In this document: positions 45,361-64,000 of the stretch, in pieces
How the letters are laid out: each line of letters opens with the position of its first letter
How positions within the stretch are numbered: the first letter of the stretch is position 1
Assembly (NCBI RefSeq): GCF_005160265.1
Contig: NZ_CP039865.1
Coordinates: 696,501-760,500, forward strand
DNA: 64,000 nt
Direction: 5' to 3'
DNA from: Phreatobacter aquaticus
GTDB taxonomy: Bacteria > Pseudomonadota > Alphaproteobacteria > Rhizobiales > Phreatobacteraceae
Position numbers and translations under genes: made by a program
Notes under the pieces: generated by a model
What the model saw: only the letters and a program-made list of their open reading frames with translations
Told to the model about the DNA's origin: nothing
Databases searched by the model: none

Positions 45361-45386
45361 TTGTCTTATCTTGTCTTATTGATCAG
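45361..45386 (+). promoter_or_regulatory. TTGTCTTAT direct repeat, possible operator
   Basis: TTGTCTTAT occurs at 45361-45369 and 45371-45379, followed by TGATCAG, 35 bp before the acyl-CoA dehydrogenase start. The half-site resembles GntR/FadR-subfamily sites. A very similar element, TTGTCTTAT-G-TTGTCT-GATC, overlaps the start of the ABC ATPase gene (52538-52557, minus strand). Confidence 0.4.
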
Positions 45387-45420
45387 GCTGATCCACCAGC
45401 CGTTGCGAGGTATGCAGTCG

Positions 45421-46581
45421 ATGGATGCCCTGCTGACCGAGGACCAGCGCCGGATTGTGGCGAGCGTCGACCGCTTTGCGGAGCGCCACCTGCCGCCGGA
45501 CGAGGTGCGGCGGCGCGACCGCGAGCATATCCCGCCCTACGACCTGCTGCCGGCCATGGGTGAAGCCGGCTTCTTCGCGCTTGGCGTGCCGGCCGATATG
45601 GGCGGCCTTGGCCTCGACTGGACCCATGTCGCTCTCGTGCAGGACCGGCTCGGCCGCCACGGCTATATGGCCGCCTCCATCTTCAATCGCGTCGTCGGCT
45701 TCGGCCTGAGCTCGGTGCTGACCTATGGCTCGCCCGCGCAGAAGGCGGCGTTCCTGCCCGGCCTGATGACCGGCACCTTCTTCATCGCGCTGGCCCTGAC
45801 CGAGCCCGGCGCCGGCAGCGATGCCGCCGCCATCCGCACCCGTGCACGGCGCACCGCCAACGGCTACGCGATCTCCGGCAACAAGATCTGGATCAGCGAT
45901 GCGAAGGGCGCGCGCTATCTCCTGACCGCCGCCCGCACCGGCCCCGAGCCGACAGGCGCCAACGGCATAACCCTGTTCCTCGTGCCGAGCGATGCGAAGG
46001 GCATTGCGCTCAATCCGCTCGCCAAGATCGGCAACAATTGCATGCCGAGTTTCGATGTTGGGTTCGACGAGGTCGAAGTCGGCGAGGATGCCGTCATCGG
46101 CGAGGTCGGCAACGGCTTCCGGCACCTCATGTCGACGCTGCATTTCTCGCGCGCCAGCATGGCGGCCACTGTCACCGGGGCGGCCCAGGCAGCGCTTGGC
46201 GGCGTCGTAGCCCACGCCACCACCCGCGAGCAATTCGGTCGCCCCATCGCCTCGTTCCAGGTGATCGCCCACCGGCTCGCCGACCTGCAGATCCGCATCG
46301 ATCTTTCCCGCCTGATGGTCGGCCATCTTGCAACTCTGATCGCCCGCGGCCTGCCCTGCCGACGCGAATCCGCCCAGGCCAAGATCGTCGCCACCGAGAC
46401 GCTGCGCGACGTCGCCGATCAGGGCATGCAGATCATGGCGAGCGCCGGCTATTCGGCCGAGAGCGACATCCAGCGCTTCTGGCGCGACTCGCGCCTCTAC
46501 ACATTCGGCGAGGGCGCCAACGAAGTGCTCCGCGATTCCATTGCCCGCGACCTCGGGCTCCATGCGAAGGGAAGACCATGA
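45421..46581 (+). CDS. Acyl-CoA dehydrogenase
   Basis: A 386-residue FAD-dependent acyl-CoA dehydrogenase of the normal length. Landmarks are LALTEPGAGSDAAAIRTRA (FAD/substrate), SGNKIWISDAKGARY, REQFGRPIASFQVI and the catalytic Glu segment LYTFGEGANEVLRDSIARDL. ATG 45421 is chosen over ATG 45412, which touches the GAGG. Its stop overlaps the amidohydrolase start (ATGA), placing it first in a three-gene operon with a CoA ligase. The acyl chain is unknown. Confidence 0.92.
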   Translation: MDALLTEDQRRIVASVDRFAERHLPPDEVRRRDREHIPPYDLLPAMGEAGFFALGVPADMGGLGLDWTHVALVQDRLGRHGYMAASIFNRVVGFGLSSVLTYGSPAQKAAFLPGLMTGTFFIALALTEPGAGSDAAAIRTRARRTANGYAISGNKIWISDAKGARYLLTAARTGPEPTGANGITLFLVPSDAKGIALNPLAKIGNNCMPSFDVGFDEVEVGEDAVIGEVGNGFRHLMSTLHFSRASMAATVTGAAQAALGGVVAHATTREQFGRPIASFQVIAHRLADLQIRIDLSRLMVGHLATLIARGLPCRRESAQAKIVATETLRDVADQGMQIMASAGYSAESDIQRFWRDSRLYTFGEGANEVLRDSIARDLGLHAKGRP

Positions 46582-47441
46582 CCGGCGTGAAGGCGATCGA
46601 CACCGTCGTCAATATCTGGACGCCCGAGGCGCTGGCCGGCCGGCCCGACCGTACGGGCTTCTACACCGAGAAGATGAAGGTCAACGCCAAGACCTTTGCC
46701 GGCACAACACACAAGGAAATGCTCGAGCGCATGGACCGCGCCGGCATCGAGAAGAGCTTCCTGATTGCCGCCAAGGTTGGCCAGCTCGGCCATCCCGCCT
46801 GCTATCACGTGCCCTACAAACTGGTGGCCGAAGCGGTGCAGGCCCATCCCGACCGCTTCTACGGGCTTGCCGGCCTCGATCCGACGGAGGGCATGCGCGG
46901 CGTGCGCGAGCTGGAGCACGCGGTGAAGGAATACGGCTTCATCGGCGCGCATTTCTATCCGCACTGGTTCGAACTCGCGCCCGACCATGCCAAATGGTAC
47001 CCATTCTACGCCAAATGCGTGGAGCTCGACGTGCCGATCCAGCTCCAGGTCGGCCAGTCCATGGTCTATGACCCGACCTATCCGCGCCGCTCGGTCGGCC
47101 GTCCGATCTCCCTCGACGCGGTCGCCTGCGACTTCCCGGAACTGAAGATCGTCGGCATCCATGTCGGCATTCCCTGGACCGACGAGATGATCGCCATGTC
47201 ATGGAAGCACAAGAATGTCTATATCGGTTCGGACGCGCACAGCCCGAAATACTGGCCGCAATCCTTCGTCCATTTCATCAAGTCGTTCGGCAAGACCAAG
47301 GTGATCTTCGGCACGGATTTCCCGGTGCTGGATTTCGAGCGCACCATGGCCGAGATCGACGCGCTCGGCTTTTCCGACGAGGTCCGCGCCCTGTTCCTGC
47401 GCGACAATGCCATCAAGCTCTACAAGCTCGACCAGCGATGA
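46578..47441 (+). CDS. Amidohydrolase-2 family TIM-barrel protein
   Basis: A 287-residue metal-dependent hydrolase/decarboxylase-like protein. It shows GIEKSFLIAAKVG, GFIGAHFYPHWFELAP, VGIHVGIPWTDEM and the C-terminal FGTDFPVLDFERTM with the metal-binding Asp and then RDNAIKLYKL. The usual N-terminal HxH is replaced by TVVNIW, so only part of the metal site is obvious. Family members hydrolyse rings or amides or decarboxylate aromatic acids. Overlaps of 4 bp at both ends tie it to the dehydrogenase and ligase. Confidence 0.88.
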   Translation: MTGVKAIDTVVNIWTPEALAGRPDRTGFYTEKMKVNAKTFAGTTHKEMLERMDRAGIEKSFLIAAKVGQLGHPACYHVPYKLVAEAVQAHPDRFYGLAGLDPTEGMRGVRELEHAVKEYGFIGAHFYPHWFELAPDHAKWYPFYAKCVELDVPIQLQVGQSMVYDPTYPRRSVGRPISLDAVACDFPELKIVGIHVGIPWTDEMIAMSWKHKNVYIGSDAHSPKYWPQSFVHFIKSFGKTKVIFGTDFPVLDFERTMAEIDALGFSDEVRALFLRDNAIKLYKLDQR

Positions 47442-48901
47442 TGAACCTCGCCGATGCTCTCGACATCCACGCGGTCGCGCGGCCCGACCATCCGGCGATC
47501 GTGGAAGACGGCGCGATCATCACCTATGCCGAACTACGCGACCGTGTCAGGCGGCTCGCGTCGCTCATCACCGCCCGGGTGCCGGATGAGACCGCTATCG
47601 TCGGCCTCTGCCTGGCGGATACGGCGCGCTATGTGATCGCGCTCTATGCGCTGGCGCGTGCCGGACGCGCCATCCTGCCCATGGACCTCCGCTGGACCGA
47701 GACCGAGCGCGCCAATGTCGCGGTCCATTTCGGCGCGACGCTGGTGCTCGGCGAGCCCGGCCAACCGGATGTCGCGGGCGTGCCGACGCTTGTCTGGGAC
47801 GACCATCTCGACAGCGCAATCGACCGCGCCGACCCCGCCATCGCCTTTCCGAAGGATGGCGAGACGCCCTTCGTCCTGTCGCTCTCGTCGGGCACGACAG
47901 GCCGGCCCAAGGGACCGCTGATCGCTCACCGGCACTTCTTTCGCCGGTTCATGACCCACTGGATCAATCTCGGTCTCAATGGCCGGGACCGCTTCGTCAT
48001 GGCAACGCCGCTCTATTTCGGCGGAGGGCGCACCTTCGCCATGTCGGTGCTGTTCTCCGGCGGCACCGTCATCATGAAGCCGCCGCCCTGCTCGCCGGAA
48101 GAGCTGATCCGCACCATCGATACCGAACAGGGCACCAGCCTGTTCCTGGTGCCAACCCAGTTCCGCCGGCTGCTGGAACTCTCCGATGAGGCGCTCGCGC
48201 CCCTGAAGCGGCTGAACCTCCTGTTCTCATCAGGAGCCCCCCTCTCGTCCGATGAGCGCCGTGCGATCCGCTCCCGCATGTGCGAGCGCTTCTTCGAATA
48301 TTACGCCTCGACCGAAGGCGGCGGCATCACCTTGCTGGGCCCGGCTGACATCGACGACCATGGCGAGAGCGTCGGACGGCCGGTCTTCGCGGTGGAGGTC
48401 GAGGTTGTCGATGACGAGGATCGCCCGCTATCGGCTGGCACCATCGGCAAACTGCGCTATCGCGGCCCTGGTGTCGCCACCGCCTATTACCGCGATCCCG
48501 AGGCCTCGGTCGAAGCCTTCCGGCACGGCTGGTTCTATCCCGGCGACCTCGCCGAGATCGATGCGGCGGGCTTCGTCACGCTTAAGGGCCGCGCCAAGGA
48601 CATGATCATCCGCGGCGGCATCAACATCTATCCCGCCGATGTCGAGGCCGCGCTGACGGCCCATCCGGCGGTGGCCGAAGCAGCTGTCGTCGGCTGGCCG
48701 TCGCAGGAGTTTGGCGAGGAGATCGCCGCCTTTGTCCGGCTCGCGGCACCGGCGGACGAGGCGGCGCTGATCGCGTTTGCGAAGGAGCGGCTGGCCCGCG
48801 CCAAATGGCCGAAGGCGGTGTTCGTGGTCGAGGATCTGCCGAAGAACGGTGCCGGCAAGGTTCTGAAGCGGGAGCTGGTGGAGCGGCTGCCGAAGGGGTG
48901 A
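47438..48901 (+). CDS. AMP-dependent acyl-CoA synthetase/ligase
   Basis: An ANL-superfamily adenylating enzyme of 487 residues. The P-loop is LSLSSGTTGRPKGPLIAHRH, the ATP/AMP motifs are YYASTEGGGITLLG and WFYPGDLAEIDAAG, and the C-terminal domain has the hinge GRAKDMIIRGGINIYPADVE and the catalytic Lys in LPKNGAGKVLKREL. It should activate a carboxylic acid to its CoA thioester, feeding the dehydrogenase encoded two genes upstream. Its start overlaps the amidohydrolase stop. Confidence 0.93.
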   Translation: MMNLADALDIHAVARPDHPAIVEDGAIITYAELRDRVRRLASLITARVPDETAIVGLCLADTARYVIALYALARAGRAILPMDLRWTETERANVAVHFGATLVLGEPGQPDVAGVPTLVWDDHLDSAIDRADPAIAFPKDGETPFVLSLSSGTTGRPKGPLIAHRHFFRRFMTHWINLGLNGRDRFVMATPLYFGGGRTFAMSVLFSGGTVIMKPPPCSPEELIRTIDTEQGTSLFLVPTQFRRLLELSDEALAPLKRLNLLFSSGAPLSSDERRAIRSRMCERFFEYYASTEGGGITLLGPADIDDHGESVGRPVFAVEVEVVDDEDRPLSAGTIGKLRYRGPGVATAYYRDPEASVEAFRHGWFYPGDLAEIDAAGFVTLKGRAKDMIIRGGINIYPADVEAALTAHPAVAEAAVVGWPSQEFGEEIAAFVRLAAPADEAALIAFAKERLARAKWPKAVFVVEDLPKNGAGKVLKRELVERLPKG

Positions 48902-48954
48902 GGCCTGGCTGCGGCGTTTCATTCGGTCAGGCCGCTGACCGACATTCCGCGTGA

Positions 48955-49133: not shown

Positions 49134-49152
49134 CCTCTACAACAGCCCAACC

Positions 49153-49782
49153 TCACCCGATCGGAAAATCCGCGGTCCCGCCGGCCATCGCCGCCGTCAT
49201 CGCATCCAGTCCCACCACCCGCCCGAAGCCGAAGGCAATGGCCGAGAGCGATGCCTGGTGGCGCGCCTCGTCGAAATCGGCCACCGCCTCGCGCACCACG
49301 AAGGTGCGGATGTCGCGCTGCGCGGCATCGCGCGCCGTCGTCTCCACGCACATCGATGTGGTGACCCCGCCGAGCACCAGGCTGCGGATGCCGTTGGCCG
49401 CCAGCAGCATGTCGAGATCGGTGCTGAAGAAGGCGGAATAGCGCGGCTTGTCGATGATCCAGTCGGAGGGATCGACCTCGGCGCCCTCATAGAGCTCGAT
49501 ATCCGGCGTGCCGCGCTTCAGCGCGCCGAGCTCGCCGAGCCGGGGACGTATCTCGGTCACCAGCAATCCGCCATCGGCATAATCGGCGCGCAGCACGTGA
49601 CGGGTCCAGATGACCTTCATGCCGGCGGCACGCGCCGCGCGGGCTAGCGCCACGCCCCGATCCGCCGCGCGCTTGCTGGCCGACACGTCGCGGCCCTGCC
49701 GGGCGACGAAGCCGTCCTCGTCGACAAAGCCGCGCTGCAGGTCGATCAGAACGAGGGCTGCCTCGCGCCGGTCGAAGCGCAT
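49153..49782 (-). CDS. Isochorismatase-family cysteine hydrolase
   Basis: A 209-residue hydrolase with the complete Asp-Lys-Cys triad: Asp14 in VLIDLQRGF, Lys112 in IIDKPRYSAFF and Cys145 in TTSMCVETTARDA. The cis-peptide GGVTTSMC is typical. Family members hydrolyse N-carbamoyl compounds, nicotinamide, ureas or biuret, so an amide or carbamoyl bond is a likely target. Its ATG overlaps the stop of the ABC binding-protein gene (TGATG); it is the last gene of this transport operon. Confidence 0.92.
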   Translation of the reverse strand: MRFDRREAALVLIDLQRGFVDEDGFVARQGRDVSASKRAADRGVALARAARAAGMKVIWTRHVLRADYADGGLLVTEIRPRLGELGALKRGTPDIELYEGAEVDPSDWIIDKPRYSAFFSTDLDMLLAANGIRSLVLGGVTTSMCVETTARDAAQRDIRTFVVREAVADFDEARHQASLSAIAFGFGRVVGLDAMTAAMAGGTADFPIG

Positions 49783-50804
49783 CACTTCAACGCCTGCTCG
49801 ACATATTCATTGGTGTAGAGCCCGTCGGCCTTGCCCGGCGGCGTGAAACCTGCGGCGACCATCAGGTCATAGCCCTTCTGCCAGCGCTCCGGCACGTTGC
49901 GCAGCATGTTCTCGCGGCCTGCGGTGAGCCAGTATTTCATCTCGTTCTTCAGGATGAGGGGCGCGACGGCCTTGTTGCGCATCTCGGCGATCTCGAAGCC
50001 TTCGAGCCGCTTCATCGTGGTGGTGAGATCGGTGTCGGCCAGCATGTCGTCGAGCGAGCGCTTCACCGCGCGCAGGAACCGCACGACCAGATCGCCATTG
50101 GCGCGCAGGCTGTCACGCTTGGCGATGTAGCACTGGGCCGGGATCGGCGCGTACTCGTCGGTGTTCCACGACAGGAAACGCTCATTGGTCGCCCGCAGCG
50201 CCACCGGCACGCCGGCACTGACGATATAGGCGTCGATCCGCCCCTGGGCGATCAGCGCCATGCCGGCCGGCGTGTTGGGCGCCTGCACGCGCTGGACCTT
50301 GGTCTTGTCGACGCCGGTTGCGACCAGCATGCAGTCGAGCAGGATTTCGGTGGCACCGCCGACCGACAGGATGCCGATCGTCTTGCCTTCCATGTCCTTC
50401 GGGTTTCGGATCGGCTTGTCGGCCGAGGAGATCACGTAGAAGGGCGAACCCTGGCTGATCGTGCCGACCGCGATCAGCGCATCGCCGCCGGGGCGCGACG
50501 CCGCGCGGATCTGGTCCATGCCGCCGGTGCGCGACAGCAATCCGCCGCCGCCCAGGACCTGCTGCACCGCCATGGCGGAGCCGCGGCCCTGCTCGATGGA
50601 AACATCCAGACCCTCGCGCTCGAAATAGCCGCCGCCCTTGGCATGCAGGATGTCGACGAAGGCCAGGATATAAGCGAAGGGCGTGATGAAGGTCAGCGGC
50701 TTGGCCGTCTGTGCGCCCGCCGCCCGGATCGTGATGGCGGTGAAGGCGCCAACGCCGAGTGCCAGCGCCGAACGGCGGGACACGGAACCATCTGAGGTCG
50801 TCAT
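49782..50804 (-). CDS. ABC transporter substrate-binding protein (SsuA/TauA/NMT1 type)
   Basis: A 340-residue periplasmic binding protein with a twin-arginine-like signal (VSRRSALALGVGAFTAI). It has the NMT1/THI5-like pattern GYFEREGLDVSIEQG, MEGKTIGILSVGGATEI and GMALIAQGRIDAYIVSAG. It supplies the importer formed with the permease (50906-51745) and ATPase (51747-52550). The amidase and isochorismatase neighbours suggest a nitrogen-containing or carbamoylated organic acid as ligand, by inference. Confidence 0.9.
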   Translation of the reverse strand: MTTSDGSVSRRSALALGVGAFTAITIRAAGAQTAKPLTFITPFAYILAFVDILHAKGGGYFEREGLDVSIEQGRGSAMAVQQVLGGGGLLSRTGGMDQIRAASRPGGDALIAVGTISQGSPFYVISSADKPIRNPKDMEGKTIGILSVGGATEILLDCMLVATGVDKTKVQRVQAPNTPAGMALIAQGRIDAYIVSAGVPVALRATNERFLSWNTDEYAPIPAQCYIAKRDSLRANGDLVVRFLRAVKRSLDDMLADTDLTTTMKRLEGFEIAEMRNKAVAPLILKNEMKYWLTAGRENMLRNVPERWQKGYDLMVAAGFTPPGKADGLYTNEYVEQALK

Positions 50805-50905: not shown

Positions 50906-51745
50906 TCATTTCGCCGCCCCCGTGGCGTGCCACGGGATCAGCAGGCGCTTGAGGAAGCCGATGGCGAAATAGAAGGCGAAGCCGATCAGCGACATCTGGA
51001 TCAGCACGGCGAACATCTGGCTGGTCTCGAAGCCGTTCATGCTCTGGATCAGCAGATGGCCGAGGCCCTGGCTGCCGCCGAGATATTCGCCCACCACCGC
51101 GCCGATGATGGCAAGCACGATGCCCACCTCGAAGCCGGTGAGGATATAGGGCAGCGCCGAGGGCAGCTCGAGCCGCTTGAACACCTGCCAGCGGCTGGCA
51201 TTGAGCGCCGTCATCACGTCGCGATGGCCCTCGTCGATCGACTTCACGCCCAGCACCGTGTTGGTCAGGATCGGGAAGAAGGCGAGCACGCCGGCAACGA
51301 TCACCTTGGACGTGATGCCGAAGCCGAACCAGACGACGAACAGCGGCACCAGCGCCACTTTCGGGATCACCTGGGTCGCCACGATGAAGGGATTGAGCGT
51401 CAGCTCGAGCCAGCGGATGCGGGCGATCAGCACGCCCAGCACGACGCCGATCAGCGCTGCCCAGAAGAAGCCGACCAGCGTCGCATAGACGGTCATTCCG
51501 GCATGGAACCAGGCGCGCCGGTTTGTCAGCATCTCGATCCAATCGGAGACCACGGCACCGGGCGCCGGCAGGATGAAGGGCGAGATGCCGGTCATGCGCA
51601 CATAGACGTGCCAGATCAGCACCAGGATCCCCAGAAGGAGCGGGGTCGTGATCCAGGGGATCGTCGCCTCGCGGCCGGCGATGAAGCTGCGGCGCACCGG
51701 CAGCGGCATGGTGGGTGTGGAGATGTCCTTGGTCGGCTCGGCCAT
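50906..51745 (-). CDS. ABC transporter permease (SsuC/TauC type)
   Basis: A 279-residue membrane protein with about six transmembrane helices. The EAA-like coupling loop appears in LNASRWQVFKRLELPSALPY followed by ILTGFEVGIVLAIIGAVVGE, the standard BPD_transp_1 signature. Its ATG lies 1 bp after the ATPase stop codon, so the two are translated together. Confidence 0.93.
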   Translation of the reverse strand: MAEPTKDISTPTMPLPVRRSFIAGREATIPWITTPLLLGILVLIWHVYVRMTGISPFILPAPGAVVSDWIEMLTNRRAWFHAGMTVYATLVGFFWAALIGVVLGVLIARIRWLELTLNPFIVATQVIPKVALVPLFVVWFGFGITSKVIVAGVLAFFPILTNTVLGVKSIDEGHRDVMTALNASRWQVFKRLELPSALPYILTGFEVGIVLAIIGAVVGEYLGGSQGLGHLLIQSMNGFETSQMFAVLIQMSLIGFAFYFAIGFLKRLLIPWHATGAAK

Positions 51746-51746
51746 G

Positions 51747-52550
51747 TCAGGAAATCTCCGCCAGCCGTTCGCGCAAGCTCAGCACGATATCCTGGAACGC
51801 TGCCGTCGCCTGCAATTCCAGCGTGCGCGGCCGGGCGAAGGGCACGGTCACGATGCGGTCGATCTTGCCGGGGCGCGGCGACAGGAGAACGATGCGGTCG
51901 GCAAGGAACACGGCTTCCGCGATGGAGTGCGTGACGAGGACGATCGACTTCTCGGTGGCGAGAAACAGCCGCTGCAATTCCATGTTCATCGCGTCACGCG
52001 TCATGGCGTCGAGCGCGCCGAACGGCTCGTCCATCAGCAGGATCTTCGGATTATAGGAGAGCGCCCGGGCAATGGCCGCGCGCTGGCGCATGCCACCGGA
52101 GAGCTCGCGCGGCCAACGCTTCTCAAAACCGGCAATGCCGACGAGCTTCATCAGCTCGCGCGCCTTGGCCCGGCGATCGGCAACACCCATGCCCTTCAAT
52201 TCCAGCGGCAGGGCAATGTTGTCCTCGATGGTGAGCCAGGGAAACAGGTTGGCGTCCTGGAACACCATGCCGAGATCGGCCAGCGCCTCGCTCTGCCGCC
52301 CACCCTTCTCCCACAGGCTGCGCCCGACGATGGAGAGCGAGCCCGCTGTCGGTTCGATCAGCCCGCCGATCATACGCAGCAGCGTCGTCTTGCCGCAGCC
52401 TGACGGCCCAAGAAGGACCAGCAATTCGCCCGCGCCGACATCGAGATCGGTAGCCGACAGCGCGTGAACAGGCTCGTCGCGCGTTCCGTACCACTTCTCG
52501 ATGGCACGAAGGGCGATGACCGGGGCCGTTACGGGGCGATCAGACAACAT
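51747..52550 (-). CDS. ABC transporter ATPase (SsuB/TauB type)
   Basis: A 267-residue ATPase. Walker A LGPSGCGKTTLL, the signature LSGGMRQRAAIARAL, Walker B ILLMDEPFGALD, and the H-loop VLVTHSIAEAV are all present. The ATG at 52550 has no obvious ribosome-binding site; a TTG at 52562 is possible. The start codon is embedded in a TTGTCTTAT-type repeat, so a regulator bound there would directly block translation or transcription. Confidence 0.93.
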   Translation of the reverse strand: MLSDRPVTAPVIALRAIEKWYGTRDEPVHALSATDLDVGAGELLVLLGPSGCGKTTLLRMIGGLIEPTAGSLSIVGRSLWEKGGRQSEALADLGMVFQDANLFPWLTIEDNIALPLELKGMGVADRRAKARELMKLVGIAGFEKRWPRELSGGMRQRAAIARALSYNPKILLMDEPFGALDAMTRDAMNMELQRLFLATEKSIVLVTHSIAEAVFLADRIVLLSPRPGKIDRIVTVPFARPRTLELQATAAFQDIVLSLRERLAEIS

Positions 52551-52638: not shown

Positions 52639-54051
52639 CTAGTACGGCGGCCGCCGGTTGGCCCAGGGACGCGCCTGCTCGAGCTGCGCCGCCAGCCGGT
52701 AGAGCAGCCCTTCCTCACCCGTCCGCGCGGCGAAGTGGACGCCGATCGGCAGGCCCTCATCCGACCAGTGCAGCGGCACCGACATGGCCGGTTGTCCCGT
52801 GACGTTGCACAGCACGGTGAAGGGGATGAAGGCCATCACCTTGGCCATCCAGGCCTCGGCATCGGTAGCATGGGTATCGAACGCCCCAATCGGCTGCGGC
52901 GGCAGGGCCAGGGTCGGCGTCAGCCAGAGATCGACGCGCTCGTAGAAGGCCATGATGCGCCGTGCCTGCCGGTGCAGGCTCTGCAGCGCGGCGATGTAGT
53001 CGGTCGCCGGGACGCGCAGGCCAGCAATCGCGAAGGCGCGCGTCACAGGTTCGATCGCATCGCCCTCCGGCAAGCGCCCGCCATTGAAGCGGGTCACATT
53101 CAGCGCCGTATTGGCGAAGAAGATGATGGTGGTCGCGCGCCGCACTTCCGCTGCATCGAAATCCGGTGCGCCATGCTCCACATGGTGGCCAAGCTCCTCG
53201 CAGAGGCGCGCGGCCTCTTCCACCGCCGTGACGCAGGCCGGATCGACCGGCACGCCGGTGGGCGCGCGGGTTGAGACGGCGATGCGCAGACGACCGGGCG
53301 GCTGCTGGGCCTCCGACAGGAAGCTGCGCGCCGGCGGCGGGGCCGTATAGGGATCGCCCGGCATGGGCCCACAGGTCGCGTCGAGCAGCGCCGCGCTGTC
53401 GCGCACCGAGCGCGTGACCGCGTGCTGCGCGGCAAGTCCGCCAAGTCCCTCGCCACCTTCGGGACCTGCCGTGATGCGCGCCCGCGTCGGCTTCAGCCCG
53501 AACAGGCCGCAGGCGGAGGCCGGAATGCGGATCGAGCCGCCGCCATCGGTCGCGTGGCCCATCGGCAGGATGCGGGCGGCAACCGCAGCCGCGGAACCGC
53601 CGGACGAGCCGCCGGGCGACAGGGCGAGATTCCAGGGGTTGCGGGTCTCGCCGAACAGATGGGATTCGGTTGCCGGCGCCAGGCCGAATTCGGACGAATT
53701 GGTCTTGGCGAGGATCACCAGTCCCGCCCGCTTGTAGCGCGCGACGAGTTCGCTGTCGGCCGCCGGCATGTTGCCGGCGAGCATCCGCGAGGCCGAGGTC
53801 GTCGGCGCCCCGACGATCGAGACGAGCAGTTCCTTCAGCGCGAAGGGCACGCCCTCGAAGGGCCCCTTCGGCAGGCCGCCAGCAATGGCCTGTCGCGCCA
53901 GATCGTCGAGCCGCGTGACGATGGCGTTGAGCCGGGGATTTTCCGCTTCGATGCGGGCCAACGCCGCGTCCAGCAGTTCGGACGCCGTCACCTCGCCCTT
54001 CCGCACAAGGGCCGCCAGCGCCAGTCCGTCAAAATCCTCGTAGGGGAACAT
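52639..54051 (-). CDS. Amidase (amidase signature family)
   Basis: A 470-residue amide hydrolase with the Ser-cisSer-Lys triad: Lys73 (VPFALKELL), cis-Ser in [16 protein letters not shown] and the nucleophile Ser173 in [13 protein letters not shown]. No signal peptide is present, so it is cytoplasmic. GGGAG is perfectly placed ahead of the ATG at 54051. Position between two ABC importers on the same strand suggests that it acts on an imported amide. Confidence 0.93.
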
Positions 54052-56523: not shown

Positions 56524-57293
56524 GCCGGCACCCGGCCATGAAGCCGGTGATAGATCGCCATGGACAGCTCTCCGAACTCGGGCCTGATCCGCGTCTCCAC
56601 TGTGCGCGGCCGCGCCAAGTGGATCGGCGTCACCTCGGCAATGCGGCCGGGCCGCGGCGACATGACGACCGCGCGATCGGCAAGGAACACCGCCTCGGGG
56701 ATGGAGTGGGTGACGAACAGGATGGTCTTTCGTTTGCCGGCTTCGGACGTCTCGCCCCAGACGCGCAGCAGTTCGATATTCATCTCGTCGCGTGTCATGG
56801 CGTCGAGCGCGCCGAACGGCTCATCCATCAGTAGGAGCGGCGGATCGAGCAGCAGCGCGCGCACGATCGAGGCGCGCTGCTGCATGCCGCCGGAGAGCTC
56901 ACGCGGCAGTTTGGATGCGAAATCGCTTAAACCCACAATGCCGAGAAGATCCATCGCCCGGTCGCGATATTTGCGGGCGTCGTGGCCGGCAAGTTCGGCC
57001 GGCAGCAGGACATTGTCGAGAATGGTCCGCCATTTCAGCAGGACGGGCGCCTGGAACACCATTCCCACCGACGTGAGCGGCCGCGTGACCGGTTCGCCGG
57101 CCACCCGCACCGCGCCCGATGTCATCGGACGAAGCCCCGCGATGATGCGCAGAAGAGTAGACTTGCCGCAGCCGGACGGTCCGACCAGCGCGATGAACTC
57201 GCCATCGGCAATGGTCAGCGAAATGTCGCGCAACGCCTCTACCGGACCGCTACCGGTCTCGTAGACCATGCCGACGTGGTCGATCTCGATCAT
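56520..57293 (-). CDS. ABC transporter ATPase (SsuB/TauB type), second system
   Basis: A 257-residue ATPase with Walker A VGPSGCGKSTLLRIIAG, signature LSGGMQQRASIVRALL, Walker B LLLMDEPFGALDAM and switch His FVTHSIPEAV. Its partners are the permease at 58605-59378 and the binding protein at 57556-58572, on the other side of a 262-bp gap that holds a repeat pair. The gene order (ATPase downstream of the binding protein, followed by two metabolic enzymes) links import and metabolism. Confidence 0.93.
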   Translation of the reverse strand: MIEIDHVGMVYETGSGPVEALRDISLTIADGEFIALVGPSGCGKSTLLRIIAGLRPMTSGAVRVAGEPVTRPLTSVGMVFQAPVLLKWRTILDNVLLPAELAGHDARKYRDRAMDLLGIVGLSDFASKLPRELSGGMQQRASIVRALLLDPPLLLMDEPFGALDAMTRDEMNIELLRVWGETSEAGKRKTILFVTHSIPEAVFLADRAVVMSPRPGRIAEVTPIHLARPRTVETRIRPEFGELSMAIYHRLHGRVPA

Positions 57294-57555: not shown

Positions 57556-58572
57556 TCACCGCGCTGGCGGCATGTCCACCCGCGTGTAGAAGCTCGCATT
57601 GAACGTCTCGTCGCAGGTCACCTGCCGGGGCAAGCCCATATTCGCATTGATGATGTCGACGGAGGCGCACATCTTGGCCCGGTCGATCGCGCCAATGCCA
57701 TTTGCCCGGAAGCGGTCGGTCCGCATCAGGCCAAGACCCAGCATCATGTTCGGCTGCATCACCGAGACATCGACCTCCGGCACCCGGCGCTTGAAGATCG
57801 CCATCGAGCCCTCCGGATCCGCCATCACGTCGCGCCAGCCAAGATAGGCCGCCTCGAGGAACTTCCTCAGAACCTCGGGCCGCTCGCGGATGGTCTTGTC
57901 GCTCGCCATGATCGACATGGAATACATGTCGAGGCCGAAATCGGCCCATTGCATCATCACCACATTGCCCTGGCCCATGGCCTTCTCGTAGAGCGGCAGG
58001 CCGGTGGAATAGTCGGCGATCGTGTCGACGCGGCCGGTGGCGAGCGCCGCGATCTTGGCGGCCGGCTCGACATTCACCCATTCGACCCTGGAACCGTCGA
58101 TGCCGGTGGCGCGCACGAAGGCCGGCCAGATCTGCCGCTGGCTGTCGCCGGGAGGCGCGCCAATGGTCCGGCCCAGAAGATCGGCCGGCGTCCGGGCAGG
58201 CTTCGAGGCCGGCGAGAAGATGTTGAGCGGCGTCTTGTCGAAGACGATGCCGATGATGCGCGCGGTCGACCCGCGCGACAGGGCCGAGACGATCACGGCA
58301 GCATCGGCAAGGCCGGCATCGGCGCGGCCGGTATCGACCTTGGCGATGGAATCGCCCGATCCGCGCGAATTCTCCAGCGTCACGTCGAGGCCGCGGTCGC
58401 GGAAATAGCCCTTCTCCAGCGCCACCCAATAAGCCGCGTGGTCGCCCACCGCGAACCAGTTGAGCGCGAAGGTGAACTTCTCAAGCTGCTGTGCCTGCGC
58501 GCCCACCGCCCCCGCGACAGCGAGGACCATGGCGGCTGCGAAGGATATCCAGGTCGATCTGCACGTCGTCAT
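57556..58572 (-). CDS. ABC transporter substrate-binding protein (NMT1/THI5-like), second system
   Basis: A 338-residue periplasmic binding protein with a Sec signal (ISFAAAMVLAVAGAVGAQAQ). The NMT1 pattern is visible: FTFALNWFAVGDHAAYWVALEKGYF (first 20 residues of the domain), DRGLDVTLENSRGSGDSI and VDTGRADAGLADAAV. The start ATG 58572 has AGGGAGAG upstream. It follows the permease gene by 32 bp. Confidence 0.9.
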   Translation of the reverse strand: MTTCRSTWISFAAAMVLAVAGAVGAQAQQLEKFTFALNWFAVGDHAAYWVALEKGYFRDRGLDVTLENSRGSGDSIAKVDTGRADAGLADAAVIVSALSRGSTARIIGIVFDKTPLNIFSPASKPARTPADLLGRTIGAPPGDSQRQIWPAFVRATGIDGSRVEWVNVEPAAKIAALATGRVDTIADYSTGLPLYEKAMGQGNVVMMQWADFGLDMYSMSIMASDKTIRERPEVLRKFLEAAYLGWRDVMADPEGSMAIFKRRVPEVDVSVMQPNMMLGLGLMRTDRFRANGIGAIDRAKMCASVDIINANMGLPRQVTCDETFNASFYTRVDMPPAR

Positions 58573-58604: not shown

Positions 58605-59378
58605 TCAGCGATCGGACCCCTGCGCCCAGGGCGCGGCGATGGCGGCAATGCCGCTCACCGCGCCATAGAGCAGGAGGCCGATGATCGAGATCCAGGCAAG
58701 CGCAGCAAACGCCACCGGCGTGTTCATGCTCGACTGGGTGGTGACGATGACAAAACCGAGGCCCGCCTGCGAGGCGACAAACTCGCCCACCACGGCACCG
58801 ACCACGGCGGCGGTCGCGGTCACCTTCAGCGCGCTCAGGATATAGGGCAGCGCATTGGGCATGCGGATCTTGAGGAAGATCTTCCAGGTCGGCGCGTTGA
58901 ACACCCGCCCGAGGTCGAGCATGTCGTCCTCGATCTGGGTGAGGCCGACCGCCGTGTTGATGACCACCGGAAAGAAGCCGATCAGCGCGCCGATCAGCAT
59001 GTTCGGCCAGATGCCATAGCCGAGCCAGAGCATGAATAGCGGCGCGATCGCCACCTTGGGCAGCACGTTGACGAAGACGAGAAAGGGCGTCAGCGAGCGC
59101 GCCACCGGCTGCGACCAGGCGATGGCGGTGCCGAGCAGCACGCCGGCACTGGCTGCCAGCGCGAAGGCGCCGAGGATCGCGGCACCCGTGAACAGGATAT
59201 GGCGGGTCCAGGGAATGTCGCCGCCGGCCATGGCCTGCACCACCTTCCAGGGGCCGGGCAGCAGGAACTCGCGCACCTGGAAGAAGTCGACCGAGAATTG
59301 CCACAGCGCGATGAGAACGACGAAAGGCGCGACCACCGGCACCAGCGACAGGATCTGGCGGCCCCCCTTCGGCATCAT
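58605..59378 (-). CDS. ABC transporter permease (SsuC/TauC type), second system
   Basis: A 257-residue membrane protein with about six transmembrane helices. The EAA-type loop is FNAPTWKIFLKIRMPNALPY followed by ILSALKVTATAAVVGAVVGE. GGAGG is well spaced before the ATG at 59378. It lies 33 bp after the NAD-dependent epimerase-like gene in the same direction. Confidence 0.93.
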   Translation of the reverse strand: MMPKGGRQILSLVPVVAPFVVLIALWQFSVDFFQVREFLLPGPWKVVQAMAGGDIPWTRHILFTGAAILGAFALAASAGVLLGTAIAWSQPVARSLTPFLVFVNVLPKVAIAPLFMLWLGYGIWPNMLIGALIGFFPVVINTAVGLTQIEDDMLDLGRVFNAPTWKIFLKIRMPNALPYILSALKVTATAAVVGAVVGEFVASQAGLGFVIVTTQSSMNTPVAFAALAWISIIGLLLYGAVSGIAAIAAPWAQGSDR

Positions 59379-59411: not shown

Positions 59412-60446
59412 TCAGAACCGGCCATCACGCGCCTCGAACTTGGTCGGCTTGCCGTGGCTCGGCATGGAGCGGGCGACCCAGTCAGCCGTCCAGTCGAGCA
59501 TCCGGTCAAGCGGCACGTGCGGATAGCCGAAAAGCCCGGAGGCCCGCGACGTGTCGGTCAAGAGCGCCGTCGGGCTCTCCTCGCCGATGATGATGGCGGG
59601 CCTGCCGAGCCTGGCGCCGAAGGCCTGGGCCAGCCGGCGCACCGACAGCGTCTCCGGACCCGAGACATTGAGGATCAGCGGCGGGTTCGCCGCATGTTTG
59701 AGCGCTCTCAGCGCCTGGGCATTGGCATCGCCCTGCCAGATCACATTGACATGGCCCATCGTGACATCCACCGGCTGCCCCGCCGCCACTTTCGAGGCGA
59801 TGTCGAACAGCACGCCGTAGCGCATGTCGATCGCGTAATTGAGCCGGAACAGCACCGTCTTCGTGCCATGGACCGAGGCGCCATATTCGAACACCCGCTC
59901 CCGGCCGAGACACGACTGGGCATATTCGCCGACCGGACCGGGCATGGCGGTCTCGTCCGGCGCGGCGCCGGCAACCGCTGCCAGCGGATAGACGTTACCG
60001 GTGGAGAAGGCGACGATCCGCGAGGCGTGAAAGGTCTCGGCGACGGCGGCCGGCACCAGGCAGTTCATCGCCCAGGTCAGGCCCAGCGCGCCGCTCGCGC
60101 CGAACTTGCGTCCCGCCATGAAGATGACATTCGGCGCCTTCGGCAGCGCCTCGATCGCCTTGCGGTCGAGCAGGTCGGCCTTGATCGTCTCGATGCCGTG
60201 GCGCTGCAGACCGGCCTCGAGCCCGGGCTCGGAAAAGCGTGCGACGCCGATGATCCGCCGTCCCGGCGAGGCCGCCCGCGCCATCCTCGCCAGTGTCGGC
60301 CCCATCTTGCCGGCAACGCCCAGGATCAGGATATCGCCGTCGACCGCGGCCAGGTCGGCAGCGACCCCGGCCGAGTGGCTGCTCAGAAAGGCTTCCAGAT
60401 CCTCGATCGAGGCGAAGCGATCAGGCAGAGACGTCACGTCCGGCAT
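59412..60446 (-). CDS. Extended SDR (NAD-dependent epimerase/dehydratase-like) with YxxxC in place of YxxxK
   Basis: A 344-residue extended SDR. The nucleotide loop is [16 protein letters not shown] (GxxGxxG) and the Ser/Thr site is [10 protein letters not shown] (Ser148). The usual catalytic Tyr-x3-Lys reads [15 protein letters not shown], that is Tyr175 and Cys179 where Lys is expected. So it may use another chemistry or be a binding protein. It leads the minus-strand transport operon; GAGGG precedes the ATG at 60446. The upstream region has the TTRGATCGRTCTAA operator. Confidence 0.85.
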
Positions 60447-60622: not shown

Positions 60623-60684
60623 GGCCCACATGGACGCGAGTGCCGACAAGCGCCTCGAAAAGATCCGGATGACAGGGACGGGAC

Positions 60685-61458
60685 ATGACAGGCAGCGGTG
60701 GCAGGACGGCCTTCGTCACGGGCGCGGGGCGCGGCATCGGGCGGGGCATCGCGCTGGCGCTTGCGGCCGAGCGGTTCCGCCTGGTCCTGAACGACCTCAC
60801 CCTCTCCATCGATCTCGAGGAGACGCTGGCCGCTGTCCGCGCCATGGGCTGCGAGGCGCTCGCCGCGCCAGGCGACATCAGCGACCTCTCCCGTCACGAA
60901 GCACTGGTGGATCAGGTATGGTCGGCCTTTGGCGGGCTCGACTGCCTGGTCAACAATGCCGGCATCTCGGTGGCGGTGCGCGGTGACCTGTTCGAGGTGA
61001 CGCCGGAGAGCTTCGACCGGCAGATCCACGTCAATCTGCGCGGGCCCTTCTTTCTCACCCAGGCTGTCGCAAAGCGCATGGCGGCGGCGCCGGCATCCGG
61101 CTTCCGCTCCATCGTCACCATCTCCTCGTTCAATGCCGAGGCGGCTTCCCCCGACCGCGCGGAATATTGCATCGCCAAGACCGGGCTTGCCATGATGACC
61201 CGCGTCTTCGCGCTCCGCCTCGCCGAGCTTGGCATCATGACCTACGAGGTGCGCCCGGGCGTCATCCGCACCGCCATGACGGCGGTGGCGAAGGAGAAAT
61301 ACGACCGGCTCTTCGCCTCCGGCTTCGCGCCCATCGCCCGCTGGGGCGAACCGGAGGATGTCGGCCGCGCGGTGGCGACCCTTGCCTCCGGCGGATTGCC
61401 CTATGCCACCGGCGAGACCGTCCATATCGACGGCGGCCTGTCGATCACCCGGCTTTGA
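60685..61458 (+). CDS. Classical SDR (3-oxoacyl-ACP reductase-like)
   Basis: A 257-residue SDR with TGAGRGIGRGIAL (cofactor loop), VNNAGIS, and the catalytic set ISSFNAEAASPDRAEYCIAK (Ser, Tyr, Lys). The C-terminal ATGETVHIDGGLSITRL is typical of FabG-like proteins. The next gene, a MaoC hydratase, starts 10 bp later. Together they could catalyse a hydratase/3-hydroxyacyl dehydrogenase pair of reactions, by inference. Confidence 0.9.
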   Translation: MTGSGGRTAFVTGAGRGIGRGIALALAAERFRLVLNDLTLSIDLEETLAAVRAMGCEALAAPGDISDLSRHEALVDQVWSAFGGLDCLVNNAGISVAVRGDLFEVTPESFDRQIHVNLRGPFFLTQAVAKRMAAAPASGFRSIVTISSFNAEAASPDRAEYCIAKTGLAMMTRVFALRLAELGIMTYEVRPGVIRTAMTAVAKEKYDRLFASGFAPIARWGEPEDVGRAVATLASGGLPYATGETVHIDGGLSITRL

Positions 61459-61468
61459 GGAACGCGCC

Positions 61469-61972
61469 ATGGTGACATCCACCTCCGGCCGCCTGCTCGA
61501 ACCTGGCGAATACTGGTTCGAGGACCTGCGCGATGGCGACCACTACAGCACCGGCCATATCGTCATCACCGATGCCCACATCATCGGCTTCGCCGGGCTC
61601 TCCGGCGACTTCTTCGACCTGCACATGGACGACGAATTCGCCCGCGAGCAGGGCTTTCCCGGCCGGGTGGCGCATGGCCTGCTCGGCCTTGCCATGGCGG
61701 ACGGGCTGAAGAACCGATCCTCCGTCCGCATCATGGCGGTGGCATCGCTCGGCTGGACCTGGGCCTTCAAGGGCCCGATCCTGGTCGGCGACCGCATCGG
61801 TGTCACCGTGACGGTGAAGGGCAAGCGCCTGACGTCCAAGGGGGATCGCGGCATCACCAACCTCGGCTTCGCCGTGTCCAACCAGGACGGCCGCGTCGTG
61901 CAGGACGGCGAGACGGCGCTGCTGACCAGGCTCAGACCGGCGGCCTTGCCGGCAAGTTCTTCAACGGATTGA
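61469..61972 (+). CDS. MaoC-like (R)-specific enoyl-CoA hydratase domain protein
   Basis: A 167-residue hot-dog fold protein. The hydratase-2 catalytic motif is GLSGDFFDLHMDDEFARE (Asp and His at the expected spacing). The C-terminal helix-strand portion (FPGRVAHGLLGLAMADGL) is also conserved. GAGG lies before the ATG, 10 bp after the SDR stop. Substrate is likely a CoA thioester. Confidence 0.9.
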   Translation: MVTSTSGRLLEPGEYWFEDLRDGDHYSTGHIVITDAHIIGFAGLSGDFFDLHMDDEFAREQGFPGRVAHGLLGLAMADGLKNRSSVRIMAVASLGWTWAFKGPILVGDRIGVTVTVKGKRLTSKGDRGITNLGFAVSNQDGRVVQDGETALLTRLRPAALPASSSTD

Positions 61973-62056
61973 CGTTCCCGAGGCGCCGACGCAGAGTTGG
62001 CCCTCATTCCGAAAGGCCCGATCGGCGCTCCCCCGCTATTCCGGACTGACGCTGAA

Positions 62057-62070
62057 TTGGATCGATCTAA
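62057..62070. promoter_or_regulatory. Second copy of the TTRGATCGRTCTAA operator
   Basis: TTGGATCGATCTAA, about 54 bp before the family-5 binding protein start. It differs from the 60605 copy only at the two purine positions of the consensus. A common regulator for both promoters is inferred. Confidence 0.55.
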
Positions 62071-62123
62071 CAACAAGCCAAGCCGGGACAATCGGCCAGA
62101 TTTCCGTTTCAGGGAGAAACACC

Positions 62124-63761
62124 ATGACGACCAAGAAGGATATGAAGCAGGGCTGGATGAGCCGGCGCGACCTCGCCAAGCTCCTCGGCATCGGTGGCGC
62201 GGCGATCGCCGCCGGCCTGCCGGAGAAGGTCTTCGCCCAGACCCGGCGCAACACGCTGGTCATCGGCATCGACATTTCCGATTGCGTGACGCTCGATCCG
62301 GCCCGCCAGGCGCAATATTCGACGCCGATGTCGCTGCTCGCCGCCTATGACATGCTCGTCACGATGTCGCCGGGCGACTACATCACCATCCGCCCGTCGC
62401 TTGCCACCTCCTGGGCACGCACGCCCGACGGCAAGGGCTGGCGCTTCACGCTGCGCGAGAACGTCAAGTTCGCCAGCGGCAATGTGATGACCGCCGAGGA
62501 CGTGAAGTGGTCGATGGAGCGCGTGCTGCGGCTCGGCGACCAGACCTCGCAATATATCAGCCACGTCGAGCGCACCGAGGTGGTGGACGCCAAGACCGTC
62601 GACATCATCCTGAAGGATCCGACCCAGCCGCTGCTCACCATCATCGCGGCGCCGGGCTTCCCGGTCTATGACCGCAAGGTGGTCGAGGCCCAGGGCGGCG
62701 ACGCCAGCATGGATGCCAAGACCAAGGACAAGGCGACCACCTGGCTGAACGAGAATTCCGCAGGCACCGGCGCCTACCGGATCACCCGCTGGGAGCGCAA
62801 CCAGCAGATCCAGTTCGTCCGCAACGACAATCACTGGCGGGGCAAGCCGCCCTTCGAGCGGATCATCATCCGCCACATCGGCGACAGCGCGGCGCAGCTC
62901 CTGTCGATCCGCCGCGGCGACATCGACATCGCCTTCAACCTGATCCCGGAACAGGTCTCCACCATCAAGGCCGATCCGAACCTCCGGCTCGAGGCCCTGA
63001 CCAGCCTCGACTTCGTCTACATGGCGCTGACCGAGAACCCCGAGTTCAACAAGGCTCTGGCGGTGAAGGAAGCCCGCCAGGCCATCGGCCAGGCCATCGA
63101 CTATGACGGCATCATCAAGAACCTGCTCGGCGGGGCCGCGGTGCGCTGCGCCAACTTCCTGCCGATCGGCGTGTCGGGTTCGACCGAGGCCATCGCCAAG
63201 GAGGTCGGCTACAGCCAGAACCTCGACAAGGCCAAGCAGCTTCTGCAGAAGGCGGGCCTTGCAGACGGGTTCGAGTTCGACATCGCCTATGGCAATGCCG
63301 CGATCGCCGGCGTGACCTACCAGACGCTGGCGCAGAAGATCCAGGCCGACCTTGCCCGGGTCAATATCCGCGCCAAGCTGACACCCATGGATCAGGTCAA
63401 CCTGCGCACCACCTTCACCGGCAACCGGGCTCAGGGCGGCGTGCTGACCTTCTGGAACCCGCCGGCGGTGGAGAACCTGCTCTGGGCGGCCGCCTCGGTG
63501 GAACGCGTCGCACGGCGCGTCCATTGGAAGGTGACGCCGGATGTCCTGAAACTGGTGCGCGATGCCGCCGCCGAAACGGATGCCAAGAAGCAGGCCGATC
63601 TCTGGGTGGAGTACCAGAAGCGGGTGGTGGACCAGGCGAACTACTTCATCCTGTTCCAGCCGATCTATCAGGTCGCAGCCCGCAGCCATCTCGGCAAGCT
63701 GCCGCTGACGGCGGCCGGCTGGATGCTCGATATGCACGACGTGAAGCCCGCCTCGGCCTGA
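62124..63761 (+). CDS. ABC transporter family-5 solute-binding protein (DppA/OppA-like), Tat-exported
   Basis: A 545-residue periplasmic protein. The twin-arginine signal is MSRRDLAKLLGIGGAAIAAG (residues 12-31). The mature part is SBP_bac_5: VTLDPARQAQYSTPMSLLAA, WRFTLRENVKFASGNVMTAE, VRNDNHWRGKPPFERIIIR, and GFEFDIAYGNAAIAG in the second lobe. Such proteins bind oligopeptides, nickel or other small organics. A strong AGGGAGA precedes the start. Permease and ATPase genes are not adjacent: a terminator and a minus-strand gene follow. Confidence 0.92.
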   Translation: MTTKKDMKQGWMSRRDLAKLLGIGGAAIAAGLPEKVFAQTRRNTLVIGIDISDCVTLDPARQAQYSTPMSLLAAYDMLVTMSPGDYITIRPSLATSWARTPDGKGWRFTLRENVKFASGNVMTAEDVKWSMERVLRLGDQTSQYISHVERTEVVDAKTVDIILKDPTQPLLTIIAAPGFPVYDRKVVEAQGGDASMDAKTKDKATTWLNENSAGTGAYRITRWERNQQIQFVRNDNHWRGKPPFERIIIRHIGDSAAQLLSIRRGDIDIAFNLIPEQVSTIKADPNLRLEALTSLDFVYMALTENPEFNKALAVKEARQAIGQAIDYDGIIKNLLGGAAVRCANFLPIGVSGSTEAIAKEVGYSQNLDKAKQLLQKAGLADGFEFDIAYGNAAIAGVTYQTLAQKIQADLARVNIRAKLTPMDQVNLRTTFTGNRAQGGVLTFWNPPAVENLLWAAASVERVARRVHWKVTPDVLKLVRDAAAETDAKKQADLWVEYQKRVVDQANYFILFQPIYQVAARSHLGKLPLTAAGWMLDMHDVKPASA

Positions 63762-63785
63762 GGCTTGGTCTCTTGAGGTGCGTGG

Positions 63786-63815
63786 AACCGGCGGGTCGCA
63801 AGGCCCGCCGGTTTT
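63786..63815 (+). terminator. Intrinsic terminator after the family-5 binding protein gene
   Basis: A 10-bp perfect stem AACCGGCGGG / CCCGCCGGTT followed by TTTT, 25 bp after the stop. It marks the end of the transcript, so no permease genes can be on it. Confidence 0.9.
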
Positions 63816-63870
63816 GCATTCAGAAAGAGGGCTGCGGCGAGCGCCGTTGTGAGACGTGAGCCCCGCTCCC

Positions 63871-64000
63871 TCAGAACCCGTAAACCTCCGCCGGGTTGTC
63901 GACCAGGATCCGCTGCCTGACCGCCTCGTCCGGCGCCCAGTCGGCGAGAATATCCAGCAGAGCTGCATCGTCGGGCCGCGGATTCTGGCCGGGATGCGGC
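63871..64000 (-). CDS. Amidohydrolase-2 family protein, C-terminal end (cut by window edge)
   Basis: The last 42 residues of a TIM-barrel metal-dependent hydrolase. The end LLDILADWAPDEAVRQRILV then DNPAEVYGF is the typical C-terminus of amidohydrolase-2 proteins (NPAxLYGF). The metal site lies beyond the right edge. It is convergent with the family-5 binding protein and probably part of the same catabolic region. Confidence 0.8.
   Translation of the reverse strand, partial: PHPGQNPRPDDAALLDILADWAPDEAVRQRILVDNPAEVYGF

Follow-up and report, generated by a model that had tools for sequence, protein, structure and literature searches.

Gene Content of the Region

The region under study comprises positions 45,361 to 64,000 of a 64,000-nt stretch of the Phreatobacter aquaticus genome (NZ_CP039865.1), which as a whole is referred to as the window; the host genome is a single contig of 4.97 Mb. 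The list of open reading frames and the inspection of start codons give 18 genes: 17 are complete and span 45412-63761, and one, an Amidohydro_2 gene, is cut by the window edge. They form three separately inherited clusters in a row, namely unit A (45412-52550), unit B (52639-60446), and unit C (60685 onward). The main subject of this work is unit B, a seven-gene cassette with the enolase-superfamily protein ENO, the TIM barrel protein TIM, and the extended short-chain dehydrogenase/reductase (SDR) SDRe. The genes are the following.

45412..46581, plus strand: ACAD, acyl-CoA dehydrogenase of unit A (PF00441/02770/02771), in a conserved seven-gene block
46578..47441, plus strand: AH2, Amidohydro_2 protein of unit A (PF04909, 159 bits), 92-93% identical in five same-genus genomes
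47438..48901, plus strand: acyl-CoA ligase of unit A (PF00501/PF13193)
49153..49785, minus strand: ISO, isochorismatase-fold hydrolase of unit A (PF00857)
49782..50804, minus strand: SBP1, NMT1-type binding protein of unit A (PF09084), 80-84% identical in five same-genus genomes
50906..51745, minus strand: PERM1, permease 1 of unit A (PF00528)
51747..52550, minus strand: ATP1, ATPase 1 of unit A (PF00005), end of the conserved block
52639..54051, minus strand: AMID, amidase-signature hydrolase of unit B (PF01425, 325 bits)
54251..55684, minus strand: ENO, uncharacterized enolase-superfamily protein of 477 amino acids, unit B (weak PF13378; AlphaFold/Foldseek)
55681..56523, minus strand: TIM, ketose-epimerase-type TIM barrel (xylose-isomerase-like) of unit B (PF01261)
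56520..57293, minus strand: ATP2, ATPase 2 of unit B (PF00005)
57556..58572, minus strand: SBP2, NMT1-type binding protein of unit B (PF09084, 137 bits)
58605..59378, minus strand: PERM2, permease 2 of unit B (PF00528)
59412..60446, minus strand: SDRe, extended SDR with a conserved YxxxC motif, unit B (PF01370, Epimerase-type, 34.7 bits)
60685..61458, plus strand: classical SDR of unit C (PRK12745, 351 bits, cut-off 250)
61469..61972, plus strand: MaoC-type hydratase of unit C (PF01575)
62124..63761, plus strand: SBP5, family-5 solute-binding protein (SBP_bac_5) of unit C (PF00496), 86-87% identical in four same-genus genomes
63871 to ~64701, minus strand: edge-cut Amidohydro_2 gene adjoining unit C (PF04909, 157 bits), its 3' end (63871..64000) lying in the window

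An earlier, sequence-only reading had described eighteen mostly transport and catabolic genes as an accessory catabolic region with two importers. This description holds; each importer consists of an NMT1 binding protein, a permease, and an ATPase, and the domain content is confirmed by Pfam, the ENO match being weak (PF13378, below cut-off). Overlapping start and stop codons had also been taken as proof of operons. Overlaps of four bases do occur at 5 of the 16 gene junctions (ACAD/AH2, AH2/CoA ligase, ISO/SBP1, ENO/TIM, and TIM/ATPase 2), but the minus-strand series also contains intergenic gaps of 88, 101, 199, and 262 bp, and one 11-kb transcript is not established. The GC content of the region is not distinguishable from that of the remainder of the window.

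Separate Inheritance of the Three Units

The units were traced in 397 genomes of the order, including 11 other genomes of the same genus. The unit A block (ACAD, AH2, CoA ligase, ISO, SBP1, PERM1, and ATP1) is intact, at 79-93% identity, in five of these 11. SBP1 is matched in 7 of the 397 genomes, namely the own genome, the same five, and one distant genome, and AH2 in 12, namely the own genome, the same five, and six others. In the five unit A stretches, the first homologue of a query gene past ATP1 is always TctC-like and never a gene of unit B. SBP5 is present in four of the 11 same-genus genomes, all of which are devoid of an SBP1 or AH2 match, and is grouped there with the SDR and MaoC genes of unit C. 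Homologues of a LacI and a permease gene, which in P. aquaticus lie past the window edge, adjoin unit C in all four genomes, and those of a CoA-transferase and a shikimate-dehydrogenase-like gene, likewise from beyond the edge, in two of the four stretches. The remaining two same-genus genomes (G019 and G227) have a match neither to SBP1 or AH2 nor to SBP5. In the same-genus stretches carrying unit A or unit C, no match to ENO, TIM, AMID, or SDRe was found. Across the sampled genomes of the genus, A and C co-occur in the own genome only, with B between them; the other 11 genomes carry an ENO of a different clade, and four of them an SDRe at 63-64% identity in another setting.

Adjacency of the genes, their almost exclusively catabolic or transport-related nature, and several four-base overlaps had led to the reading of the whole 18-gene region as one pathway, in which an amide- or ring-containing acid would be taken up, converted to a CoA-thioester, and subjected to beta-oxidation-like degradation. 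Because A and C reside in disjoint sets of same-genus genomes, and because 80 loci of the B type, described below, lack any homologue of ISO, SBP1, ACAD, AH2, CoA ligase, SDR, MaoC, or SBP5 at 40% identity or more, this single pathway is rejected as highly improbable. The sequence-only reading had itself proposed a gene-neighbourhood search and named independent scattering of the genes in relatives as the outcome speaking against it; this is the outcome obtained, with A, B, and C inherited separately. It described the region correctly but erred in interpreting it as a single pathway. Uptake, amidase, and isomerase are combined only in the seven genes of unit B, and the remaining genes are not among its recurrent partners. 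As this case cautions, consecutive catabolic genes in accessory DNA do not necessarily make up one pathway.

Both A and C have the look of ordinary catabolic clusters in the accessory genome of the genus. The best NCBIfam models for ISO are biuret hydrolase (107 of 370 bits) and RutB (105 of 378). Amidohydrolases usually carry an HxH metal motif at the N-terminus; the N-terminus of AH2 (IDTVVNIW) is apparently without it, yet the protein is highly conserved in the five same-genus genomes. Ahead of unit A, a membrane protein and a secreted dioxygenase-like protein, both named by eye, are encoded at 43942-45206 on the minus strand. A tRNA-Leu gene (anticodon CAA; 40801-40883, plus strand), situated about 4.5 kb ahead of the region, is a possible insertion landmark.

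An Operon Family Built on ENO and TIM

The ENO-TIM pair forms the core of a widespread operon family, and unit B is a copy of such an operon that the genome has acquired. A scan of a contig collection with an ENO alignment confirmed at least 577 of 595 candidate stretches, of which the best 80, at 52-65% identity, were kept as B-type loci; 49 of these exceed 20 kb, and 31 hold 20 kb or less. Most of them come from Alpha- and Betaproteobacteria, and one from a Rokuibacteriota bin. Operons with the same importer layout as unit B show approximately 50-75% identity. Counting homologues at 40% identity or more, unless stated otherwise, TIM is present in 69 of the 80 loci, followed by a dihydrodipicolinate synthase-type (DHDPS) protein in 48, SDRe in 47, TctC in 33, TetR in 30, ATP2 in 28, MocA in 26, DUF993 and PERM2 in 25 each, TIMc13 in 24, SBP2 in 19, and AMID in 15. 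GNAT is found in 20 loci, or in 41 at 35% identity, and PERM1 in none, or in 17 at 35%; the count for ATP1 is likewise 28, owing to the similarity between both ATPases. The recurrent partners of the cassette are thus aldolase-type, MocA, and DUF993 genes, and beta-oxidation genes are not among them. A further neighbour cluster, c2, was discarded: its copy in L089 was judged to be a reverse-strand shadow of MocA, as the matches fell on MocA genes in reverse.

The gene order in Mesorhizobium sp. L-8-3 (L083) is TIM, TetR, a second TIM, SDRe, GNAT, DHDPS, PERM2, SBP2, ATP2, ENO, and AMID. Location of DHDPS and GNAT between SDRe and PERM2 is shared by L081, L082, L087, and L092, whereas in the window SDRe lies directly upstream of PERM2. 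In the window, TIM sits between ATP2 and ENO, and likewise in L085, L087, and L091; the last of these, from a member of the Comamonadaceae, contains SDRe, importer, TIM, ENO, and AMID, with no DHDPS or GNAT match, as in the window. By eye, a second protein with enolase-superfamily motifs resembling those of muconate lactonizing enzyme (MLE) was seen before the permease in L082 (6244-7374), L091, L098, L112, and L140 (cluster c28). Relatives of ENO also occur in 128 plasmid records, 92 of them from Rhizobium. Sugar-type ATP-binding cassette (ABC) genes, an IolB-type isomerase, MocA enzymes, or hydroxyacid dehydrogenases are encoded with some relatives; on Rhizobium leguminosarum pRL22b1 (L162), the neighbours are an IolB-type isomerase, a glycosyl hydrolase, a TIM barrel, and a hydroxyacid dehydrogenase.

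The AlphaFold model of ENO has a predicted local distance difference test (pLDDT) value of 90.8, and in Foldseek it matches mandelate racemase/MLE-type folds (E 3e-16, probability 1.00, TMt 0.66-0.78 over the 50 rows), with the capping domain and TIM-like barrel of the enolase superfamily; no NCBIfam model matched the protein. The residues K228xK230, D261, E296, D321, and K344 are invariant in two alignments, one of the window and 17 of 30 loci (18 sequences), the other of the window and 31 of the 80 loci (32 sequences). They are read as a predicted MLE-type site. We take D261, E296, and D321 to be the three acidic metal ligands after strands 3-5, a prediction from sequence only, while K228xK230 on strand 2 and K344 on strand 6 presumably fit the rule for the MLE subgroup. 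TIM matches D-psicose 3-epimerase (E 2e-13); at least 95% of 67 sequences share E157, D190, H216, and E253, and E-D-H-E is the residue set of ketose 3-epimerases.

The part of the region that deserves interest is the seven-gene cassette and its family, which is uncharacterized as far as searches of the open-licence literature show: in PubMed Central (PMC), no description of the operon, of DUF993, or of the related structures 4dnh and 3oqb was found, nor any characterized pathway with this exact gene set, in line with the sequence-only reading. The family provides a common context for groups without known function, namely the ENO group, DUF993, and the YxxxC SDR.

Link to DUF993 and Probable Displacement of the Native Genes

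ENO is matched in 52 of the 397 genomes of the order, or in 50 after two marginal matches (G193 and G272, E 7e-4 and 8e-4) are set aside, and DUF993 in 115. DUF993 is present in 49 of the 50 ENO genomes, the exception being G245, versus 66 of 347 others (Fisher 2e-29, phylogeny ignored). Within the genus, all 11 other ENOs, which are 43-45% identical to that of the window, adjoin DUF993 and MocA; TIMc13 and TetR are adjacent in 10 of the 11 loci and TIM in 9, with L202 being a short contig. The own DUF993 locus of P. aquaticus, at ~4.50 Mb (L198), contains TetR, TIMc13, DUF993, and MocA, and neither ENO nor TIM in its 20 kb. The window ENO is the sole ENO in the genome, and the next-best match to TIM is only 26% identical.

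The phylogeny of ENO was calculated by a quick method from 118 rows, that is, the window and 117 of 131 loci; loci without an ENO match of 400 amino acids, or with stops in it, were dropped. The window groups with 14 loci (Shimodaira-Hasegawa-like approximate likelihood ratio test, SH-aLRT, 95), 13 of which have the ABC or ABC plus AMID layout; another member of the clade, L086, is an 11.8-kb contig in which no SBP2 is found. Outside this clade, a separate group is made up of the 11 same-genus ENOs (SH-aLRT 100); long branches were flagged in the tree. In the simplest account, ENO and TIM of the native locus gave way to those of the acquired cassette, which suggests that both ENO lineages do the same job. 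Five of the same-genus ENO/DUF993 loci (L076, L201, L204, L205, and L207) have a distant NMT1-type importer of their own, 28-51% identical to window genes; such importers may thus have been recruited more than once.

A different account would regard unit B as a reduced fragment of the fuller operon, having lost DHDPS and GNAT, which five loci hold between SDRe and PERM2, and doing nothing coherent in P. aquaticus. This is a quite improbable account. All seven reading frames are intact and retain the conserved residues of the family, a 73% identical DHDPS as well as DUF993 and MocA are encoded elsewhere in the genome, and ENO and a close TIM nowhere else.

SDRe and Its Side Module

Classical SDRs carry a catalytic YxxxK motif. 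SDRe has YAxSC instead, and the sequence-only reading was right in calling it unusual: Y175 and C179 occur in at least 95% of 46 proteins, are invariant in an alignment of 28 (window and 27 of 44 loci), and are found in six of six proteins of a further set. The Rossmann motif GxxGxxG is present (G43-G46-G49, invariant in the 28 sequences), and the model (pLDDT 92.4) has the corresponding fold, with TerB and NDP-sugar epimerases as the nearest Foldseek matches. Despite the missing catalytic lysine, SDRe may still be a redox enzyme. Relatives in plasmid records come from Proteobacteria, Firmicutes, Actinobacteria, Aquisphaera, and haloarchaea; YxxxC is found in five of five checked (L163-L167), and the members from Paenibacillus, Streptomyces, and the haloarchaeal genus Natronosalvus all retain both the tyrosine and the cysteine. 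On the plasmid of Natronosalvus amylolyticus (L166), SDRe lies among sulfatases, aminotransferases, and an amidohydrolase, unlike the bacterial contexts seen.

DHDPS accompanies SDRe in 46 of 47 loci, versus 2 of the 33 loci without it, and the pairing with a DHDPS-type protein recurs in the Paenibacillus and Streptomyces records. The DHDPS protein keeps the 'IK' lysine, to which we assign a Schiff-base role. Of 61 genomes searched, 19 have ENO, and 10 of these also have SDRe; among the 42 without ENO, SDRe was matched in 2, in one case weakly. Since it is missing from 9 of the 19 ENO genomes, SDRe is taken as an add-on. The own genome holds, at ~1.70 Mb (L064), a locus with TetR, the DHDPS-type aldolase, GNAT, a second SDRe, and ABC genes.

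Importers and Amidase

The NMT1 family is common in the host genome (31 matches). The designation of the importers as SsuABC/TauABC-type stands insofar as they are Ssu/Tau-like, but membership of SBP1 and SBP2 in the SsuA family is rejected, both proteins falling below the curated NCBIfam cut-offs for SsuA and TauA (SsuA-family scores of 49.0 and 58.6 bits versus 163.5). In the Protein Data Bank (PDB), SBP2 matches 4nmy (E 1e-20, ligand not stated) and the N-formyl-aminopyrimidine-binding protein 3ix1 (E 3e-16). AMID is an amidase-signature protein by its PF01425 score (cut-off 27), with K73, S149, and S173, which we take to be the Ser-Ser-Lys triad, conserved in 16 sequences; its nearest solved relative is 6-aminohexanoate-cyclic-dimer hydrolase (E 1e-86).

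In the B-type loci, AMID (at 45% identity or more) is coupled to SBP2 (at 55% or more), which is found in 14 of 15 AMID loci versus 5 of 65 others (p 1e-10). TctC (at 45% or more) is found in none of the 19 SBP2 loci versus 33 of 61 others (p 7e-6), and in none of the 15 AMID loci versus 33 of 65 others. As AMID is tied to the SBP2 importer and absent with TctC, the ABC plus amidase layout would handle an amide, and TctABC the free acid.

From the importer and the amidase it could also be concluded that unit B serves mainly for nitrogen supply, the substrate being an N-heterocyclic or pyrimidine/thiamine-type amide of which ENO, TIM, and SDRe process the remainder. The best ligand-defined solved relative of SBP2 (3ix1), the proximity of AMID to a cyclic-amide hydrolase, and the best model for the TetR of the fuller operons, RutR (55.8 of 368 bits), agree with this. 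However, relatives carry TIM, MocA, DHDPS-type, and sugar-ABC genes, which speaks for carbohydrate chemistry; the 33 TctC loci all lack this amidase, and no amidase is annotated in L161, L164, L165, or L167. A nitrogen source as the main purpose is, therefore, considered unlikely.

Proposed Function of Unit B

The interpretation favoured here, with a probability of roughly 0.55, is that the three units are separate and that unit B, as an acquired ENO-TIM operon, would serve the uptake and breakdown of a sugar acid or its amide by a route that is partly encoded elsewhere in the genome. A carbohydrate-like acid is favoured by the sugar-type ABC, MocA, IolB-type isomerase, and hydroxyacid dehydrogenase genes in relatives. 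For substrate and chemistry of unit B we infer the following scenario. SBP2 with its permease and ATPase would import a small amide-bearing polyhydroxy acid, either sugar- or cyclitol-like, the amide of which would be hydrolyzed by AMID. The acid would be oxidized by the MocA dehydrogenase, and the keto intermediate epimerized or isomerized by TIM. ENO would abstract the proton alpha to the carboxylate, leading to dehydration or cycloisomerization, and the product would be cleaved by DUF993 and/or the Lys-type DHDPS proteins. SDRe, DHDPS, and GNAT would constitute a detachable side module. Operons with TctABC would take in the free acid, while those with ABC importer plus amidase would take in the amide conjugate. 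In P. aquaticus, ENO and a close TIM would be supplied by unit B alone, the ~4.50 Mb locus would contribute DUF993, MocA, TIMc13, and TetR, and the remaining genes of the fuller B operons would come from the ~1.70 Mb locus.

Several points weigh against this interpretation. ENO is assigned with 24.6 bits to PF13378, under the curated cut-off of 29.4. Gene absences from the 80 loci are uncertain, given that these are the best 80 of at least 577 and that 31 of them are short. The Fisher values treat genomes as independent; the displacement of the native genes is one event, seen in P. aquaticus, and the tree has long branches. It is by genome content, rather than co-regulation, that unit B is linked to the remote loci. 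Distant NMT1/ABC relatives share loci with TctC (L042, L043, L046, L123, and L126), so that the split between importers holds for close SBP2 relatives only. Unit B in the window is without DHDPS and GNAT, SDRe is missing in 7 of the 11 other same-genus genomes, all of which have ENO and DUF993, and four same-genus genomes carry an SDRe-DHDPS-GNAT-ABC locus apart from ENO (L061-L063 and L066); SDRe and DHDPS may act in an adjoining step or serve a different pathway.

Summarizing, a broader proposal can be made tentatively, and as a whole it is possible though doubtful. An undescribed but widespread proteobacterial catabolic pathway would combine a new ENO family and a TIM epimerase, nearly always with DUF993 and MocA; its importers would be exchanged between TctABC, sugar ABC, and Tau-like systems, with an amidase added for an amide substrate; and many operons would add an SDR in which the catalytic lysine is replaced by a conserved cysteine, for a non-standard reaction. 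The tight co-occurrence of ENO and DUF993, together with the coupling of amidase and importer, provides a direct, testable substrate hypothesis.

Comparison with Known Systems

Two partner genes of the family have full-length relatives of solved structure, namely PDB 4dnh for DUF993 (E 2e-177) and 3oqb, a MocA-type oxidoreductase (E 5e-186), both deposited as structures only, without stated function. The former is presumably Sinorhizobium meliloti SMc04132. A table of changed genes in PMC12542648 has entries for SMc04132 and SMc04133.

The importers share with ABC importers of the Ssu/Tau/ThiY type the layout of an NMT1 binding protein, one permease, and one ATPase, and differ from Ssu and Tau in the low scores of their binding proteins. 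For SDRe, the nearest solved structure by both sequence and fold is the oxidoreductase TerB (6nd7 and 6d2v), but identity is only 20-22%, and by its entry title TerB belongs to terfestatin biosynthesis rather than catabolism. TIM has the PF01261 barrel and the E, D, H, and E residues in common with D-psicose/D-tagatose 3-epimerases and IolO, yet it stays below the equivalog cut-offs (75.6 of 300 for IolO and 55.1 of 300 for D-psicose epimerase).

The best profile matches of ENO (E ~1e-3) are to the MLE/dipeptide-epimerase branch (3jva and 1jpm), with which it shares the superfamily fold, the K-x-K motif, the acidic residues, and the lysine. It differs in length (477 versus ~360 amino acids) and in being below the Pfam cut-off and outside the NCBIfam models; identities in the Foldseek list are 11-20%, and both mandelate racemases and MLE-type proteins appear among its top rows.

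In the oxidative uronate and hexarate pathways, uronate dehydrogenase, galactarolactone cycloisomerase, and KdgD act. The fuller B operons resemble these pathways, by enzyme class only, in an Epimerase-type SDR, an enolase-superfamily enzyme, and a DHDPS-family protein, while they differ in an SDRe without the YxxxK lysine and in the additional TIM, MocA, DUF993, GNAT, and amidase genes.

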